Source of the DNA: Chromera velia
Lineage: Eukaryota > Sar > Chromeraceae
Reading direction: 5' to 3'
DNA: 28,071 nucleotides
Assembly (NCBI GenBank): GCA_018398765.1
Contig: JAHBMJ010000343.1
Span: forward strand, 15,001-43,071
The position numbers and the translations under genes are program-made. Of the stretch, positions 5,651-25,478 are shown in pieces (position 1 is the first letter of the stretch; the number at the start of each line of letters is the position of its first letter). The notes under the pieces are model-generated. The model saw only the letters and a program-made list of their open reading frames with translations, had not been told where the DNA came from and searched no databases.

Positions 5651-5653
<3 letters not shown>

Positions 5654-6835
5654 CAAGGCACAGGAGATGTCAGGGCTCCACCGAAATCCTGTGGGACCAG
5701 AGTACCAAACCCCGTCCTGGTTGAAGGGGTTGGGGCCCTCGATGTCGAGAGTCAAGTCATCTTGGAGACCCGGAATTGCATTTGTGGTCGGGTCCACGGG
5801 AAACGTTCCCTTGACGGTGGTACGGTGAAGGATTCTGAGGTCGGGTCTGTGTGACTCAGGGAGGGAGCGTTTCGATGTCGCTCGTGTGTGAGCAGAGGCG
5901 TCTGCTTTGTGGGAGACTGCTAGATTGTCCGTGATCAGAAAATCTCCCGTCTTCCAATTGAACTTTGTCGAGACGTCAGGATGTGATACAAGCTCGATGT
6001 AACGCTTGCACACGGCAGTTAGCTCCTCCTTTGTGAGCAGTCTCATGTTGCTTGTGTCTAAAATGGCCCCCAAGACAATGAGGTACAGGAAGAGATGTTT
6101 CCTTCCGGTCATCGGGTGTGTGAACACGAGGGGGTGCACCACTCCTCTTCTGTTAGTAATGAACACCAAATTCTTCCATCTGATCTTTTCTTCCTCTGTC
6201 AGAAGGTCGTAGGCCTTTGAGGTTAAGGCAAAGTGCGTACCCCCCCTGAAGGTTTTTGAAGGAGCCTTGACCATGTAATAGGTGACGTGGGAATAAGGGA
6301 CACGGTGGAATCCGCCGTCGTTGTGCCAGGTGGCCCCCGCCCCGTTCATCCCTTCGGATCGGTCGTTGGAAAGGCGAAGGATGTGCTCATTTGGGGCCTT
6401 CGGGTGGATTAAGTGACTTCCTGTCATCTCTCTTCCCCCAAAATATTCCGAAATTTGCACCTGCTCGTCTCCCGACAGAGTCTGGTTGCGGAAGAGAAGA
6501 GCACCGACGGTCGCCATGTAATCCTCCAAGGCCTTCAGCGTCTCCTCTGACGGCCTCTGCCTGAGGTCTAGGCCAGAAACTTCGGCTCCGACCGGGTGCA
6601 GAGGTTTGACTGTGAAGGTTTCGCTCCCGATTGTGTGTGTGAACGTCTCACCAACATCGGGACAAGTTGACGGGGAGGGCTCAGAGACGTCGACTGAAAG
6701 AGTGCCGGGGGGTGAATGGCAGACGCTCGAGCAGTCGGTAGGGATAATGAAAGCAAGGAGAAGGAAAGGCACAGACGATTTGATCATTCTGAGGGCAGCC
6801 AAAAACATGAGGCGAGATGAAAATTTGCGTGGCAA
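5651..6835 (-). CDS. TauD/TfdA-type 2OG-Fe(II) dioxygenase, secreted or ER-targeted
   Basis: A 394-residue uninterrupted frame. The family couples oxidation of a small substrate to decarboxylation of 2-oxoglutarate. The Fe-binding HxD is in ATWHNDGGFH (His171, Asp173), the distal His is in GDFLITDNLAVSHKA (His309), and the 2OG-binding Arg lies in LRILHRTT (about 334-338). The early VGAEVSGLDL and GALLFRNQTL blocks and HPMTGRKHLF are also typical. All ligands are present, so it should be active; the substrate cannot be told. An N-terminal hydrophobic stretch, SVPFLLLAFIIPTDCSS (21-37), looks like a signal peptide. Met17 (codon at 6787) would give a more classical signal and is an equally likely start. 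A secretory signal is unusual, as most family members are cytosolic. Length fits the family plus the signal and a tail. No intron is visible. The stop abuts a GA repeat, and the last 142 bp recur at 5401-5542. Confidence 0.88.
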
Positions 6836-9283: not shown

Positions 9284-10669
9284 TCAAAAAGTCCCTTCCA
9301 ATTTCATGTCTATCTCTTTCTCTTCAGGCTTCTCGAAATCTGCTTTCTCCAGCTTTCTGCTTCTCTTAGGCTCAGGCAGAGAGTCTGTACTAATGTATTT
9401 CTTCTGTCCTTGTTTGATCACCCCTTTCTGATTATCATGAGAGAGATCAAGTCCAACGACTTTCCTTCCTCCAGGTCCGATCAGTTCAGGCTCATCGCAT
9501 TCAACACGCTTTCTGAATTGTCTCAAAGTCTCGAGCAGGTCAGGCAAAATTAAAAGTAAGTCATCTATATGCATTTGTACTGCCGCTGTGATGTCTACCT
9601 GAGGAACATCGGCCCACGACTTGCTGTCTGAAGAGCAAACAAGAGAAGGAAGAGGAGAGCAGGTCTGGATGAGGATCGACTCAGCACACTTAAAAAAGGA
9701 AAAAAGAGAATGCAAAACTTTTTTAAGCCACTGAATGAAGATTCTCGGACTGTCTTTCAAACCATAAAGAGCTTTCAGAATTTGATATACCCCTCCAGGC
9801 CGAAAACTCCATTTTTTTTCCTTTAAAAAAAACTGAGGCATCTTCACGCGCACCGCAGAGGTGGCAGAGCCAGTGATAGGCGCCTGAAGGAAAGCACACG
9901 TCACATCTGTTAGAGTAAGGGCCCATCCTTTCACCCAACAGAAAATAAAGAAAAGGCAAAAGATTAATGCATCAGGTGTGCCTGCATACGTTTCATAGTC
10001 ACGTTGATCTCTTCCTGAATGTCCTACACAGACAAGACATGCCTTTGGGACTCTTTTTCCATCTTTCAATTTCCACGTCAACACCCACTTGCACAGAAGA
10101 AGAAAAGAACAGAGAGTAGAGAGGACAGAGGAGAATTTGAGAGTAGGAATAGACGCAGCAGGAATTTCATCAGCATCCCCTAAAACAGAAAATCTCTCGA
10201 ACTTGTCAAGCTTGCTGTTCATTGCTTCATTGAACAGACCTTCTTTCACAGCAGGATTAGAGAAGGAAACAGGAATCTGGTTCTTTCCCGAATTGTTTAG
10301 AGACTCAGGCAAAGTGTAAGAAAGATCAGCTGGCTTCTCTTTCTGCTTGCATACGTACGCCTTGTGCTCTTTTTCAAAGCAAAACCTACACACAGCCGTA
10401 CGCTGAGTATCAGTTGACTCATCTAACTCAATAGGTTCCCCCCAAATAATCTCTGACTATGAAGACTCAGAAGAAGAAGAAAGAGGAGACAGAGAAAAAG
10501 AAGAAGAAGAAGAAGAAGAAGAACGAAAAGAAAAATCGTCTTGTTTCTTTGCTTTAATTCCGTTTTCATTTTCATGCCCCCCCCGACCTACAGTCTTCCC
10601 TTTGTTCATCTGTTCCCCCCTGTAAAGAAGGCCGGGCATCTCCCAACATCCACTCTCCCACATGATCAA
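9284..10669 (-). pseudogene. Copia reverse transcriptase with CCHC-like linker
   Basis: The largest intact piece (10393 to 9284, 369 codons) is an RVT_2-type RT. It shows WVLTWKLKDGKRVPKACLV, then TLTDVTCAFLQAP with the first catalytic Asp, ILKALYGLKDSPR, and the catalytic MHIDDLLLI (HIDD replacing the usual YVDD). Just before the RT is CRFCFEKEHKAYVC, a perfect C-x2-C-x4-H-x4-C spacing. In classical elements this knuckle sits in Gag, not between integrase and RT. The frame continues upstream in phase to 10669 through a Ser-rich GAA-repeat segment, interrupted by one TAG at 10457-10459. The piece ends at a TGA (9284-9286) in the same frame as the RNase H remains. RT copies element RNA into DNA. 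Confidence 0.88.
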
Positions 10670-20418: not shown

Positions 20419-21119
20419 GAGATGTATGTCCTCGCTGACGCTCATGCAGTCACTTCACTGACTTCACTCACTGCTAACTTCGATTCTTCCCCCCCCCGAG
20501 ATCGCATGCTGTGCATGCTGATGTGGATCTATCCCGGACAGGCCCATCGGCCCGGACGCCACCGGTCCGTGTCATTGACCCATAATCCAACACTGGGCCC
20601 ACAAAAGCAGACCATGCAATGCACGTGTGATACAGGATGGTCACTATGGTCGCCTTCGCTGTGAGTAGCTGTGAGCAAACAGGACGACTTTGGTCGCTGG
20701 GCCCACAAAAGCAGACCAACGTGTGTGTGATCTAGTACGGTCTCGTCCACTCACCCCCTCAGTCACTCACCCACCACTCCCCTCTCTTGGTCTCTCTGCT
20801 CAATGACATGAGCTTGAGACATCCCTTCGAGTTCTCGCATAATTGACGCAAGACTCGGCCTCGAGGCTCAAATGTTAACCTCCTGTCTGTTTTTCCACAA
20901 TTAAGGCGAAGTGATCACGCGAGTGTGCAAGACCGAGGAAAGGATGATCAGAGGGCCGTCAGAGACGTACGGGGAAAGCGCGGAAAAACGAAAAGGAAGT
21001 AAAGGAAACGATTTGAATCAGAACTAGGAAGAGGCGTTCAGCATCTCACGCACGCGAGATTCCAGAGTGACGTAACAGAGTAGGCAGGCGGGCAGGAAAA
21101 GGTCAACAGTGGCATGCAC
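19470..21119. other. Intergenic region with GAAA microsatellite and direct repeats
   Basis: No gene recognised. (GAAA)n with GAAT variants runs from about 20269 to 20419. A 22-bp direct repeat, CTGGGCCCACAAAAGCAGAC plus CA, starts at 20594 and again at 20698, and each copy is followed by a GTGTGAT-containing stretch. The right end is the 3' flank of the CPC-heptad gene; no AATAAA was seen there. Confidence 0.5.
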
Positions 21120-22671
21120 TCACACGGCGGGGCAGAGGCCTTGCCCAATCGGACAGAGACCAGCACCGCAAGGGCACTCCGCGGTATCACACGGGCAAAG
21201 TCCGTCATTGCAGGGACAGAGACCAGCACCGCAAGGGCACTCCGCGGTGTCACACGGGCAGAGGCCCTCGTTGCAAGGACAGAGACCAGCACCGCAAGGA
21301 CAGATACCAAACGGGTCATTGCAAGGACAGTTCCCCTGAGCGCATGGACAGTCCCCCTGAGCGCAAGGGCAGATGCCGGTGCCACAAGGGCAGTTGCCTT
21401 GGTTGCAAGGACAGTCCCCCTGGTTGCAACCACACACGCCAGTACCACAAGGGCAGTTGCCTTGGTTGCAGGGACAGTCGCCTGAGTTGCAAAAACAGCA
21501 AATTCAATATAAATTTACGACAAAAGACGACAATATCGATATTGCAAGAAAATTGCTTTGAATTTGTGGATGACAAAGCACATGGTTTCTTTCCCCCATT
21601 CTCTTCATGGACGCAACAGACAAAAAGAAAGAAAGCAACAAAGAGAAAGGAACGTCACAACAACTCAGACAAAGTGGGCAGGGGGCCCGAAAGGTGAGAG
21701 TTAAGCGCCCCTTGCCTCTCAACCTCCCGACAGGACTTCACATGATCACTTGTCGTCACACGCTACTTCTTGCTGCTTCCACCCAAGACAAGAGAGAAGA
21801 TTGCAAAAACAGTAAAAACCCCATTGACAAAATTGCAACAAAAGACAACAATATCATTGCAAGAAAATTGTTTTGAATCCGCGGAAGACAGACCTGCGTT
21901 GCAAGGACAGTTGCCTGAGTTGCAGGGACAGAGCCCCTGATTGCAAGGACAGTCGCCCTGGTTGCAAGGACAGTTGCCTGAGTTGCAGGGACAGAGCCCT
22001 TGATTGCAAGGACAGTCGCCTTCGTTGCAGGGACAGTTTCCGGTAGCACAGGGGCAGTCTCCTTGGTTGCACGGACAGAGGCCGCTCCCACACTGACAGT
22101 CTCCTTGCGCACAAGGACACAGACCTGAGTTGCAAGCACACGGATCTGCCGCGTCGTTTGTACAAGTACAGAGACCCTGATTGCAAGGACAGTTTCCCGC
22201 AGTGCCGCATAGGCACGGGTCGTTCGGGTCTTTACTGCATTGGCAGTTGCCTTGGTTGCAGGGACACGTCTCCGTACCGCAAGGACACTCGTCCGTCTTG
22301 CAGGGACAAGGACCTGTGCCGCAAAGACAGTGATCCGTGCCGCAAGGGCAGTCTGCTGTGCCGCAGGGACGCTGTTTCGTACCGCAAGGAACTTTGTCCT
22401 TCGTCCTCGACTTCGGGCCGGCGTCTTTGCCCTCGTTGGTCTTCGTGAAGTCAAAGATGTCCTTGTCAAATTGCATTCCTTTGAACAAGTCTGCGAACAA
22501 ATATTATACATGGATGGGCAGGAGAGAGCTCGTTTTATCTCCGTGTTTTGAGGCGAGGTCCCGCTATAATCAGCTTCAATTCAATTCGTGCGCCTCACCT
22601 TGTAGCTTTTCCTGATCCAGGGCGGCAAACGCCACCGTCCCCACCAGGAGGCCAAAAAGAACCTTCAGCAT
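21120..22671 (-). CDS. Secreted CPC-heptad repeat protein, three exons
   Basis: Proposed exons are 22599-22671, 22490 down to 21894, and 21481 down to 21120, giving 343 residues. Exon 1 encodes a signal peptide, MLKVLFGLLVGTVAFAALDQ. The donor is GTGAGG, the acceptor TTCGCAG, and intron 1 is 108 nt. After a short linker containing KDIFDFTK, the rest is about 40 units of 7 residues with consensus CPCNxGx; 36 keep the C-x-C, and I count about 76 Cys (22 percent). Intron 2 (412 nt, GTCTGT to CTCAG) is phase 1 and rejoins exactly in the heptad (CPCNA|GDCPC). If intron 2 is retained, the protein ends at 21763 with a hydrophobic tail (266 residues). The C-x-C spacing recalls metallothioneins, but the signal peptide points to a disulfide-rich extracellular or cell-surface protein. 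Function unknown. The stop overlaps a GTGAGT, so a further exon is possible. Confidence 0.72.
21151..22410 (-). repeat. 21-bp / 63-bp coding minisatellite
   Basis: Heptads are encoded by 21-bp units, often grouped into 63-bp blocks of three. Two blocks at about 21151 and 21214 are nearly identical. So are two at about 21899 and 21962, which share more than 50 bp with few changes. This shows recent unequal exchange or slippage in whole-codon steps that keeps the frame. Confidence 0.85.
21482..21893 (-). other. Intron 2 with internal 85-bp duplication
   Basis: The segments at about 21487-21570 and 21800-21884 are near copies, offset by about 313 bp, sharing GCAAGAAAATTG and CAAAAGACRACAATATC (plus strand). 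In the transcript the first copy starts at the donor and carries a dead acceptor (TTTGCAATCTTC). The second ends in the live acceptor (TTTGCAACTCAG) and starts with a dead donor. The ancestral intron was probably about 105 nt and became duplicated with about 200 nt between the copies. The tract between them has no CPC heptads. Confidence 0.65.
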
Positions 22672-23657
22672 TCCGGACGCAACAGTGTGAACGAAAACGG
22701 AGTTGCCAACTCGCGAACACCTTTCTCTATTCTTGTCCTGGCTTCTGGTTGCCCTTGACTTCTCCTTCTTCCAACTTATAGAAGTGAGAGCTGTTCACGA
22801 TTGATTGAATCTGATGATCGGGGTTTTCACGATTGACTGAACGGTTTTTCTTGCGGTTGCATATGCTATCAATGAATTGTCATGAACTCGTTGTTCCACG
22901 ACATTCCACGACACAGATCAGCAGATGATCAGCAATGATTGATCAGCAGTCTGATGAATACTTTGTACGACGGAGACGGTGTATCCTGAGATATCCTGAG
23001 TGCGTGACGCAGTCTGAGCGGCATGCAGTCGAACGCATGCATGCACTCCGTGCGAATGGCCTGGAAGGCGCGAATTCTTAAATGAGCCTCACCCTCATGC
23101 ATCTTTACGGGGCCAAAAAGTCTGATCAGTCTGCATCCAGCAGCTCAGCTGTACTGCAGGAGCTGAAAGTGTTGTTTGTTAAGATCGAAGCAAAAGCTTC
23201 ACGACTGACAGAAACAAACTTTGAAAAAGGTGGATTGCCTTCAGACATACGGTATCAGCACGATCAAGCGGGCAAAGGAAACAGCTCTTTGCCTTTTGGC
23301 TTCAGGATTGCCTCCCTGAGTTGCACTGTTGCACAAATTGCGCTTACTGCTCAACTGGGAAAATGCACATGTTTCACTCTGTCAGAAAAGCCCTTGTTGG
23401 GCTGATCTCTGACGGCAAAGAAGTCAGTTCCACGTATGGCTCGACGTTGAGGTTTCGGCAGGCTTCTTCCCCGCGCTCTCATGCATCTTCTTGATCTGTT
23501 TGCAAGTGCCTTGTCAGTGTTTCCACTAACTTCTTCACATGGTCATCCTTTTGTTCGCTTCCTTGCTTTTCCTTTACGCCAACATTTGTGTCGTGGAGAG
23601 TCCCAGAACACACATCTCCCTTCCTACCCTTCCCCTTGTGCCTCTTCTTCCCCCCTC
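22672..23657. other. Spacer between two divergent genes
   Basis: This lies between the minus-strand CPC gene and the plus-strand coiled-coil gene, so it should hold both promoters. TTCACGATTGA-Y-TGAA occurs twice (22795 and 22826), and AGATATCCTGAG-like duplications lie near 22980-22998. An open frame at 23082-23405 (107 codons) has no recognisable domain. The pyrimidine-rich end with ATGCAG at 23658-23663 could be a splice acceptor, so an upstream coding or 5' UTR exon is possible. Confidence 0.4.
22775..22780 (-). promoter_or_regulatory. Possible TATA element of the CPC-heptad gene
   Basis: CTATAAGT on the minus strand lies about 105 nt upstream of the proposed start codon. Position and sequence are compatible with a core promoter, but nothing else supports it. 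Confidence 0.25.
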
Positions 23658-25320
23658 ATGCAGGAAACAACACCTGAAAAGTGGACAGAGACGGACACGG
23701 ATGCCGAAACGGAGACGGAGACCCCCCTCAATCGTCTCTCTCTCGAGGTGAACCAGGAGAGTTTTACAGATCCGGATTCCGGAACAGATTCTGGATCGAC
23801 TGATGATGATTGTCTGCTGTCCCCCTCTTTCCTCCGCTTCAAACGGCCGTTTCGAAGCCTCCCACCCAGCAGTGTGCTGTCTCCTGCAGCAGAGCAAGAG
23901 ATGGGAGCGACGTCAGATTCCGGGTCTGAATCCGACAGTGTCAGCACGACGTGGTCTGATAGGGCAATCGGACAGTCCCAAAAGTCTCTTGCACTGTGCG
24001 AGGACCTGATGAGAATGTGTGAGAACATGCACAGAGAGAGAGAGCACTACAGAATGAAGGCGGAGGAAGAAGAAAGAAGGGCTGAGGCCGCCGAATTTTT
24101 CCTGCAGCAAGCACTGACACAACTACAGACATTGCGAATAAAGAGAAAAGGAGAAGATCGGCCACTTCTGCACGAAGGAGAAAGGGAACTTCTACCCGCT
24201 TCTCCTCAGTCTTCCAACAGTCCTCATCAAGAAGAGAGAGAGCAGATCCAACCCTTGAGTCATCTCTTTCCTGCCGCTGTACAGGGAGACGGTGATTGTC
24301 AAGATCTCTCACCCCCCCTTCACTCTAGGTCTGGCCCTGCTTCTGACCCCCCGATTTCCGTCTCTCCTTTGCTGCACAGTTTTTCTAACCGCATGACTCA
24401 GCCGCAAGCAGCTCCTCCCAGTGTCTCCTCAGCAACTGACAGTGTGGGGGTCGAAGGGGAAAGGGAAACACTAGTGAACATCTGCCTGGAAGAAGAAGAA
24501 GAAGAATGGGAGGAGGGTGTGCTCTGTTCTTCCAGTGAAGCAACTGCTTTTAGTTCTTTCTTTGTCGCTCTCTGTGCTGATAATGTGCTTCCTGTAGTGA
24601 GGACGCACCTGGGGAGACGGCTTGAGAGTGACGAGATTTTTTGGGAAGACAGGAGAGAAGAGAGTCAGCAGTTGGAGTCGTCGTCCTTTCTTTCTGAGGG
24701 GGGAAGAGAGGACACGCTGACGGCGTTCTTGCAGCAGTCAGAGATGCAGAAGGCGAGAGTGGAGGCGAGCATCCCTCCGCTGATTGAAATGCTCAGGAAG
24801 ACAGAAGATACTCTCTCTACGGTGAGAGAGTCGTTCAATGAGAGCGAGAGAGAAAGGAGGAGGTTGGAAAGAGAGTTTGAGGGGGAAAAGGAGAAAAGAG
24901 AGGAGGCCGGTAGAGAAGTCGCACACCTGAAGAAAATCTCTCAAAAGCAGCAGCAACAAATTGACGAATTGTATCAGGAGAGGAGAGGGAGGGAAAGGGA
25001 GAGGGAAAACCTGATGCAGAGGGAGCGAAACCTGCGCCTCTCTCTGCAGTCGATACAGTCAAGCTCCGGGAAGGAGAGGGAAACCAAAGATATAGTCAGT
25101 CTCTGGCAAAGGATGTACGTGCAGAATATCATCGATCAGAAGAATCATGTACAGAATATCACCGCTCAGACATCCTTTTTCAAAGCAGAAATAAAAGGAC
25201 GCATGATCGAAGAGAAAGAATGCCAAGCAGGCATAGAGATCGAGGAGTCAATCCGCAGACCTGAATTCACGAAGGGAAGAACAAAGTCTGCAATGCAGTC
25301 TTACAAACATGCACACAGAT
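23658..25320 (+). CDS. Coiled-coil protein, Ser/Glu-rich, C-terminus uncertain
   Basis: The frame is open from 23481 to 25478. I start at the Met at 23658 ([20 protein letters not shown]) because the 59 upstream codons look like UTR or intron and a CT tract with CAG precedes the next codon. The protein has an acidic Ser/Thr-rich N-terminus, a first coiled coil at about residues 110-163 ([20 protein letters not shown]), a Pro/Ser region, an acidic run (EEEEEEWEE), and a long coiled coil at about 351-471 ([20 protein letters not shown] through [15 protein letters not shown]). Near the end, VQNI occurs twice in a 27-bp duplication. After about 25320 the frame translates a CA microsatellite, which I take as intron: GTATGT at 25321 and CCCTCTCTTTAG at 25467-25478 could be its splice sites. 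No enzymatic domain. It could be a scaffold or cytoskeletal protein; the family is not recognised. Confidence 0.6.
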
Positions 25321-25478
25321 GTATGTATGCACACACATACCCACACGCCCTCACATACACATATACACACACACATATACATACACGCACGCACGCTCGC
25401 ACGCGCACACGCACACACACATACACACACACACTCACACTAATTTTGCTGATCTTCGCTTTCCTTCCCTCTCTTTAG
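25321..25478. repeat. CA microsatellite in a probable 3' intron
   Basis: (CA)n with TA and GC variants from about 25326 to 25440, followed by a pyrimidine tract and TTTAG. The acceptor-like end coincides with the stop of the long frame. Joining at GTATGT would add only two residues and a stop, so the true last exon is unclear. Confidence 0.6.

Follow-up and report, generated by a model that had tools for sequence, protein, structure and literature searches.

A predicted secreted protein of forty cysteine-rich heptads in Chromera velia, possibly a disulfide ladder

The minus strand of a 28,071-nucleotide stretch of Chromera velia DNA (the window, meaning the whole stretch analysed) can be read as a gene for a protein in which a seven-residue unit, usually containing Cys-Pro-Cys, recurs some forty times. 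Such a locus raises the question of whether an open frame in repetitive DNA is a gene at all and, if it is, what its many cysteines would do: bind metal, cross-link a wall, or pair with one another in a fixed order. The gene is modelled in three exons running from 22671 to 21120, with 1032 nt that make up 343 codons and a TGA stop. Its parts are as follows.

22599..22671, minus strand: exon 1, 73 nt; codons 1-17 are the putative signal peptide
22491..22598, minus strand: intron 1, GT-AG, 108 nt, phase 1
21894..22490, minus strand: exon 2, 597 nt; Cys-free linker up to residue 57, units starting at residue 58
21482..21893, minus strand: intron 2, GT-AG, 412 nt, phase 1; splits the array
21120..21481, minus strand: exon 3, 362 nt including the TGA stop; remainder of the array
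22351..22392, minus strand: two N-terminal half-units, residues 58-71, VPCGTKQ and RPCGTAD, without the first Cys of the pair
21156..22350, minus strand: 36 C-x-C units, residues 72-332, with intron 2 inside
21120..21155, minus strand: two C-terminal half-units and the stop, residues 333-343, CPIGQGL and CPAV, without the second Cys of the pair

The sequence-only reading had held that reading frame, splice signals and exon lengths agree, and they do: both introns have GT-AG ends, both are in phase 1 as deduced from the exon lengths, and the frame closes on the terminal TGA. The signal peptide claimed in the same reading also appears sound as a prediction from composition. The protein begins MLKVLFGLLVGTVAFA, a signal-peptide-like start with a maximum 11-residue Kyte-Doolittle mean of 2.46 and an A-x-A motif, found by eye, that would place cleavage near residue 16-17. 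The linker that follows has 40 residues and no Cys, with 7 Asp, 2 Glu, 8 Lys and 1 Arg, and would be unlike a plastid transit peptide. Divergent from this gene lies an ORF of 665 aa (23481-25478, plus strand) with Glu/Arg-rich stretches recognised by eye; its best Pfam E value is 0.12, and its end enters a CA-type simple repeat.

The estimates of about 40 heptads and about 76 cysteines proved exact, the array consisting of 40 units in heptad register and the Cys total being 76, all within 286 residues. The description of a uniform CPCNxGx heptad was an overstatement, in that 36 of the 40 units are C-x-C, 29 are C-P-C, only 14 fit the strict pattern, and four are longer, at 8-10 residues, three of these carrying Asp-Pro in the loop. 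In order, the array has two units with the second Cys only (residues 58 and 65), the 36 C-x-C units, and two with the first Cys only (residues 333 and 340), the last of which ends after four residues. No single Cys occurs between C-x-C units, and the spacing is x4 in 33 of the 39 Cys gaps other than x1. In six frames of the unspliced window, the longest unbroken C-x-C-x4 run is 12 units; in the remainder of the window it is 1, and in all 500 first-order Markov shuffles of 21000-22700 it ranged from 0 to 2.

The DNA shows how the array apparently grew. Tandem 63-bp copies within it match at 80-93%, a sign of recent growth, and the ends of intron 2 are themselves diverged copies (21521-21575 and 21836-21890, 75% over 55 nt ungapped, with a gapped alignment extending over about 90 nt), arguing that a duplication once included an intron inside the array and that two short ancestral introns may once have flanked an exon that has since gone. 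At the protein level, the residue class at position 7 recurs with a period of three units: 15 of 24 agree at lag 3, and shuffling gave p 0.013 for lags 3 and 6. We rejected this 21-residue super-period as a structural feature because agreement between third codon positions increases at that lag as well, to 0.68 as against 0.42-0.58 for every other lag as far as 9, and the 63-bp duplication therefore suffices to produce it.

Repeat growth of this kind is also what would be expected if there were no gene, only a 21- or 63-bp minisatellite open by chance, and other frames of the array are indeed partly or wholly open, a second same-strand frame being likewise stop-free across exons 2 and 3. The evidence from substitutions among the units argues otherwise. 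The comparison covered 39 of the 40 units, with the truncated last unit dropped and the longer units cut to their first seven residues. In the CPC frame pS was 0.74 and pN 0.33, with a bootstrap 95% interval of 0.39-0.52 for a ratio in which, because it compares repeats inside one gene, old and present constraint are inseparable; with the Cys codons removed the interval was 0.61-0.77. When the frame was shifted on that strand, either way, pN came out slightly greater than pS. The Cys codons are almost free of replacements (pN 0.05) while their synonymous differences are saturated (pS 1.10); pN at positions 4, 5 and 7 was 0.52-0.64, and at position 7 it exceeded pS. This contrast between the Cys codons and the variable rest argues that selection maintains the Cys lattice first, and then Pro and Gly. 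One antisense frame gave a similar ratio (pS 0.61, pN 0.31) over 32 units, in a comparison that chose units by their Cys, was hence partly circular, and is superseded by the 39-unit one. That frame shares its third, or wobble, positions with the CPC frame and is interrupted by seven stops, five in exon 2 and two in exon 3. Given also the exact splice phase, the signal-like start and the terminal stop, we consider a chance-open minisatellite very improbable; the predicted gene is real and probably functional, encoding a putatively secreted Cys-repeat protein.

A further point on the side of a minisatellite is that bacterial repeats of the 21-nt type mimic the heptad in shadow frames, and this emerged from the searches for relatives. 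When bacterial contigs were scanned with a 42-residue repeat alignment, two of 67 candidate stretches were confirmed (L020 and L021). Both were rejected as relatives: each has a long ORF (734 and 403 aa, respectively) on the opposite strand with Gln/Pro repeats (AQGQF.., QGQRPP..), and the CPC frame there is accordingly read as a shadow, although L020 nonetheless has a 78-aa ORF in that frame. The window's own array, read antisense, also yields repeats of the QGQSPWL type. A Photobacterium plasmid that matched exon 2 at E 1e-4 was likewise set aside, with no CPC array among its listed start-bearing ORFs of at least 60 aa; this match, too, looks like a shadow frame. Bacterial shadow-frame repeats at L020, L021 and L041 imitate the CPC heptad, and they are a trap for profile searches with the motif. 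In viral contigs, none of four candidate stretches was confirmed with the exon 2 query and none of 67 with the repeat alignment, and exon 2 matched nothing in phages at E up to 1.

The protein matched nothing in Pfam, NCBIfam or PHROGs at E up to 10, nor among PDB sequences, so that as far as those libraries reach the earlier description of a family that could not be named stands; a relative among eukaryotic proteins is possible. In the literature, the one paper returned for Cys-Pro-Cys motifs concerned Wilson's disease, and among the listed papers on CXC repeats none dealt with an array of this kind, as judged by title. In the organism's own genome the whole protein gave five matches at E 0.001 or better, all at the gene's own locus, and the first 58 residues gave two at E up to 1, both again at that locus; by this search the N-terminus appears to be single-copy, the six-frame, exon-by-exon method being one that may overlook diverged copies. 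A DNA pattern for a single unit occurs 49 times in the genome compared to 11 for the reversed control, with 14 of the 49 in the Cys-repeat gene and 35 scattered, only C3688 having two, 1 kb apart. Querying the genome with 70 residues of the repeat, at E up to 10, returned 12 matches from 13 candidates, eight of them at the gene's own locus. The other four (L029, L030, L032 and L033, E 0.001 to 1.0) are not counted as relatives. L032 and L033 contain GT-type simple repeats, and L029 (G000:C1318, 22306-22452) and L033 (G000:C30, 45826-45966) can be read as repeats of 14 residues, each containing a single CPC (LCPCSRTEAATDA- and CICPCNKEREPVGR-like), that may be minisatellites.

Short tandem units occur elsewhere in the window as well. 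An inverted repeat with 585-nt arms (1317-1901 and 1966-2550, 97% complementary, with a 64-nt spacer) contains 21-bp tandem units of the CTGCCTAGCAGT type and looks like a foldback transposable element. Farther along, on the minus strand, are a long ORF with a TauD/TfdA dioxygenase domain (5651-6835, E 4.8e-30) and an RVT_2 (copia-type) reverse transcriptase (9284-10393, E 2.9e-9). The genome as a whole is that of an alga, with 58 matches to light-harvesting proteins, several being fragments of a single gene. Compared with PDB chains, one light-harvesting protein came closest to LHCI of 9vfj and next to various algal types, and one alpha-tubulin came closest to 7tnt and 7miz, both Toxoplasma structures. 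PsaA and PsaB had no match in the assembly.

What the cysteines do is best approached from the ends of the array. Val or Arg stands in place of the first Cys in units one and two, and Ile or Ala in place of the second Cys in the final two, with the register and the Pro preserved in all four. The result is a balance of 38 first and 38 second cysteines. When the second Cys of unit i was paired with the first Cys of unit i+k for the 11 offsets from k = -5 to k = +5, only k = +2 paired all 76 and left no orphans. A blind draw from the 80 Cys positions would give this taper with a probability of 6e-7, which we judge too generous a figure; if array ends decay and the four end units are each bound to drop one Cys, the chance of the observed choice is 1 in 16. 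The sequence-only reading had left the mechanism open among metal-binding, wall and adhesive roles, and on this point the tapered ends go further, providing a strong hint, short of proof, of ordered disulfide pairing.

The explanation that we prefer, tentatively and as something not quite probable, is that the protein is a secreted disulfide ladder of granulin order, serving as structural material and perhaps as a rod in the matrix of a wall or cyst. The signal peptide would route the protein into the secretory pathway, whose oxidising conditions would let the ladder close, the second Cys of C-x-C unit i bonding to the first Cys of unit i+2 and the 76 Cys forming 38 disulfides in one regular ladder. 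The product would be acidic and rod-like, with its variable turns pointing outward, and its most likely place would be in the cell wall, the cyst wall or the matrix at the surface, as a tough structural component.

The cysteines of a granulin are spaced as two singles, paired cysteines and two further singles, and two last bonds complete its set. Among its other bonds, CysI is joined to CysIII, CysII to CysV, CysIV to CysVII and CysVI to CysIX (PMC7463432), giving a twisted ladder of four stacked hairpins and six disulfides (PMC4527844). The C. velia protein resembles this arrangement in being secreted, as predicted here, in having its paired Cys flanked on either side by two single ones, in the balance that this gives for i to i+2 pairing, and in the bond from the second Cys of unit i to the first Cys of unit i+2, which is known in granulin and is proposed here. 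Its loops vary while its Cys are kept, as in granulins, where conservation chiefly concerns the Cys framework (PMC7463432). It differs in having 36 C-x-C motifs (mostly C-P-C) and no vicinal C-C, mostly x4 loops, 76 Cys rather than 12 per module, and 36 full units with 38 bonds rather than four units with six. The granulin profile PF00396 gave no match, as was true of every Pfam family at E up to 10, and a search of the genome for granulins also returned none, which does not show absence, because the control genomes likewise gave none. Granulins are reported to be absent from bikonts except green plants (PMC4527844). The protein may work like a granulin without being one.

Several observations count against such a ladder. 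The taper could be decay of the array ends, the geometry of C-P-C differs from that of granulin C-C, and C-x-C spacing suits metal clusters too. The order of the disulfides cannot be fixed from sequence because mini-granulin folds occur with another order (PMC11035057). The mean pLDDT of the AlphaFold2 models was 42.6 when exon 2 was modelled by itself and 37.4 when 11 units were modelled from an 8-row alignment built from pieces of the one protein, and the models showed no confident strands.

The ladder has to be weighed against a metallothionein-like store, secreted or in the endomembrane system, in which C-P-C units would form metal-thiolate clusters and repeat number would set capacity; we consider this unlikely, but the strongest of the rivals. 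Metallothioneins are not known to carry a signal peptide. The hydrophobic start with its A-x-A motif argues against a metallothionein here, and would lead to an oxidising compartment; this is an argument from composition, and a rust fungus is said to have small metallothioneins that are secreted (PMC2441471), so that the cytosolic location by which the sequence-only reading had set metallothioneins apart may not separate them. Their shortness alone does not: metallothioneins contain about 15-30% Cys in CC, CxC or CCC motifs and are classically under 100 aa (PMC9781358), and the present protein, with 76 Cys and 36 C-x-C in its 286-residue array, has the composition and exceeds the length (343 aa), as do longer members such as Oikopleura OdiMT2 with 399 aa and 123 Cys (PMC8283569). 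OdiMT2 also grew through internal duplication, and its capacity scales with repeat number, a precedent for long tandem metallothioneins (PMC8283569). Like these and the multi-domain snail proteins, the array is a tandem series of C-x-C units of similar length and Cys content; it differs in its signal-like start, in its acidity, in the tapered ends that a metal store leaves unexplained, and in its near-uniform x4 spacing without interspersed single Cys, in contrast to the x3-rich mixed patterns of molluscs (PMC9781358). With a pI of 4.05, three Lys and one Arg in 286 residues, and neither Tyr nor Trp, the array makes Lys-rich metallothionein-like chemistry, and dityrosine chemistry as well, appear unlikely. 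No metallothionein family profile in Pfam or NCBIfam matched at E up to 10, in libraries where short divergent families may lack a model. Metal may be bound even by a granulin-like fold: that of Pirh2 holds zinc in place of disulfides (PMC10133702).

Disulfides might instead run mainly between molecules, in a wall or matrix protein that lacks a fixed ladder within the molecule and has a chemistry resembling that of keratin-associated or oocyst-wall proteins. The very high Cys content, signal-like start, low complexity and lack of a predicted fold would all suit such a protein, which we nevertheless think rather improbable, since the register intact to both ends and the tapered balance of 38 and 38 Cys suggest internal pairing. 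The domains of COWP and OWP proteins are long and multi-Cys, unlike the seven-residue units here. No OWP domain was matched in Pfam, which may lack a model for it. The two are alike as secreted Cys-rich arrays within one wider lineage, oocyst wall proteins occurring in Cryptosporidium, coccidians and the other sequenced chromerid, Vitrella, which has arrays of oocyst wall protein domains (PMC4501334). The same paper reports, only from C. velia, a two-Cys domain in tandem arrays, e.g. in Cvel_967; by its description it resembles the present repeat in having two Cys per unit and a tandem arrangement, and it may or may not be identical to it (PMC4501334). A comparison with frustulin hexapeptides was considered and dropped. 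A surface adhesive, ice-binding or other ligand-binding solenoid would also be a regular repeat, with a position 7 that is free, partly hydrophobic and of a class recurring every three units; the 63-bp duplication is enough to account for that recurrence, and the missing sequence match to solved structures and the absence of confident strands in the models leave such a solenoid a slim chance.

The larger claim that the preferred disulfide ladder invites is possible but on balance doubtful: a granulin-type ladder would have arisen independently in an alveolate as a continuous rod of 38 rungs, made from seven-residue units with defined end caps, and would constitute a new extracellular building material. 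If that is true, the protein would be a minimal, designable disulfide rod whose length is set by repeat number and whose ends are closed by the loss of one Cys in two units. It would offer a clean test case from nature of whether C-x-C arrays serve disulfide bonding or metal binding, and it would add a candidate to the wall components of a photosynthetic organism related to the apicomplexans, which build their oocyst walls with different Cys-rich proteins.
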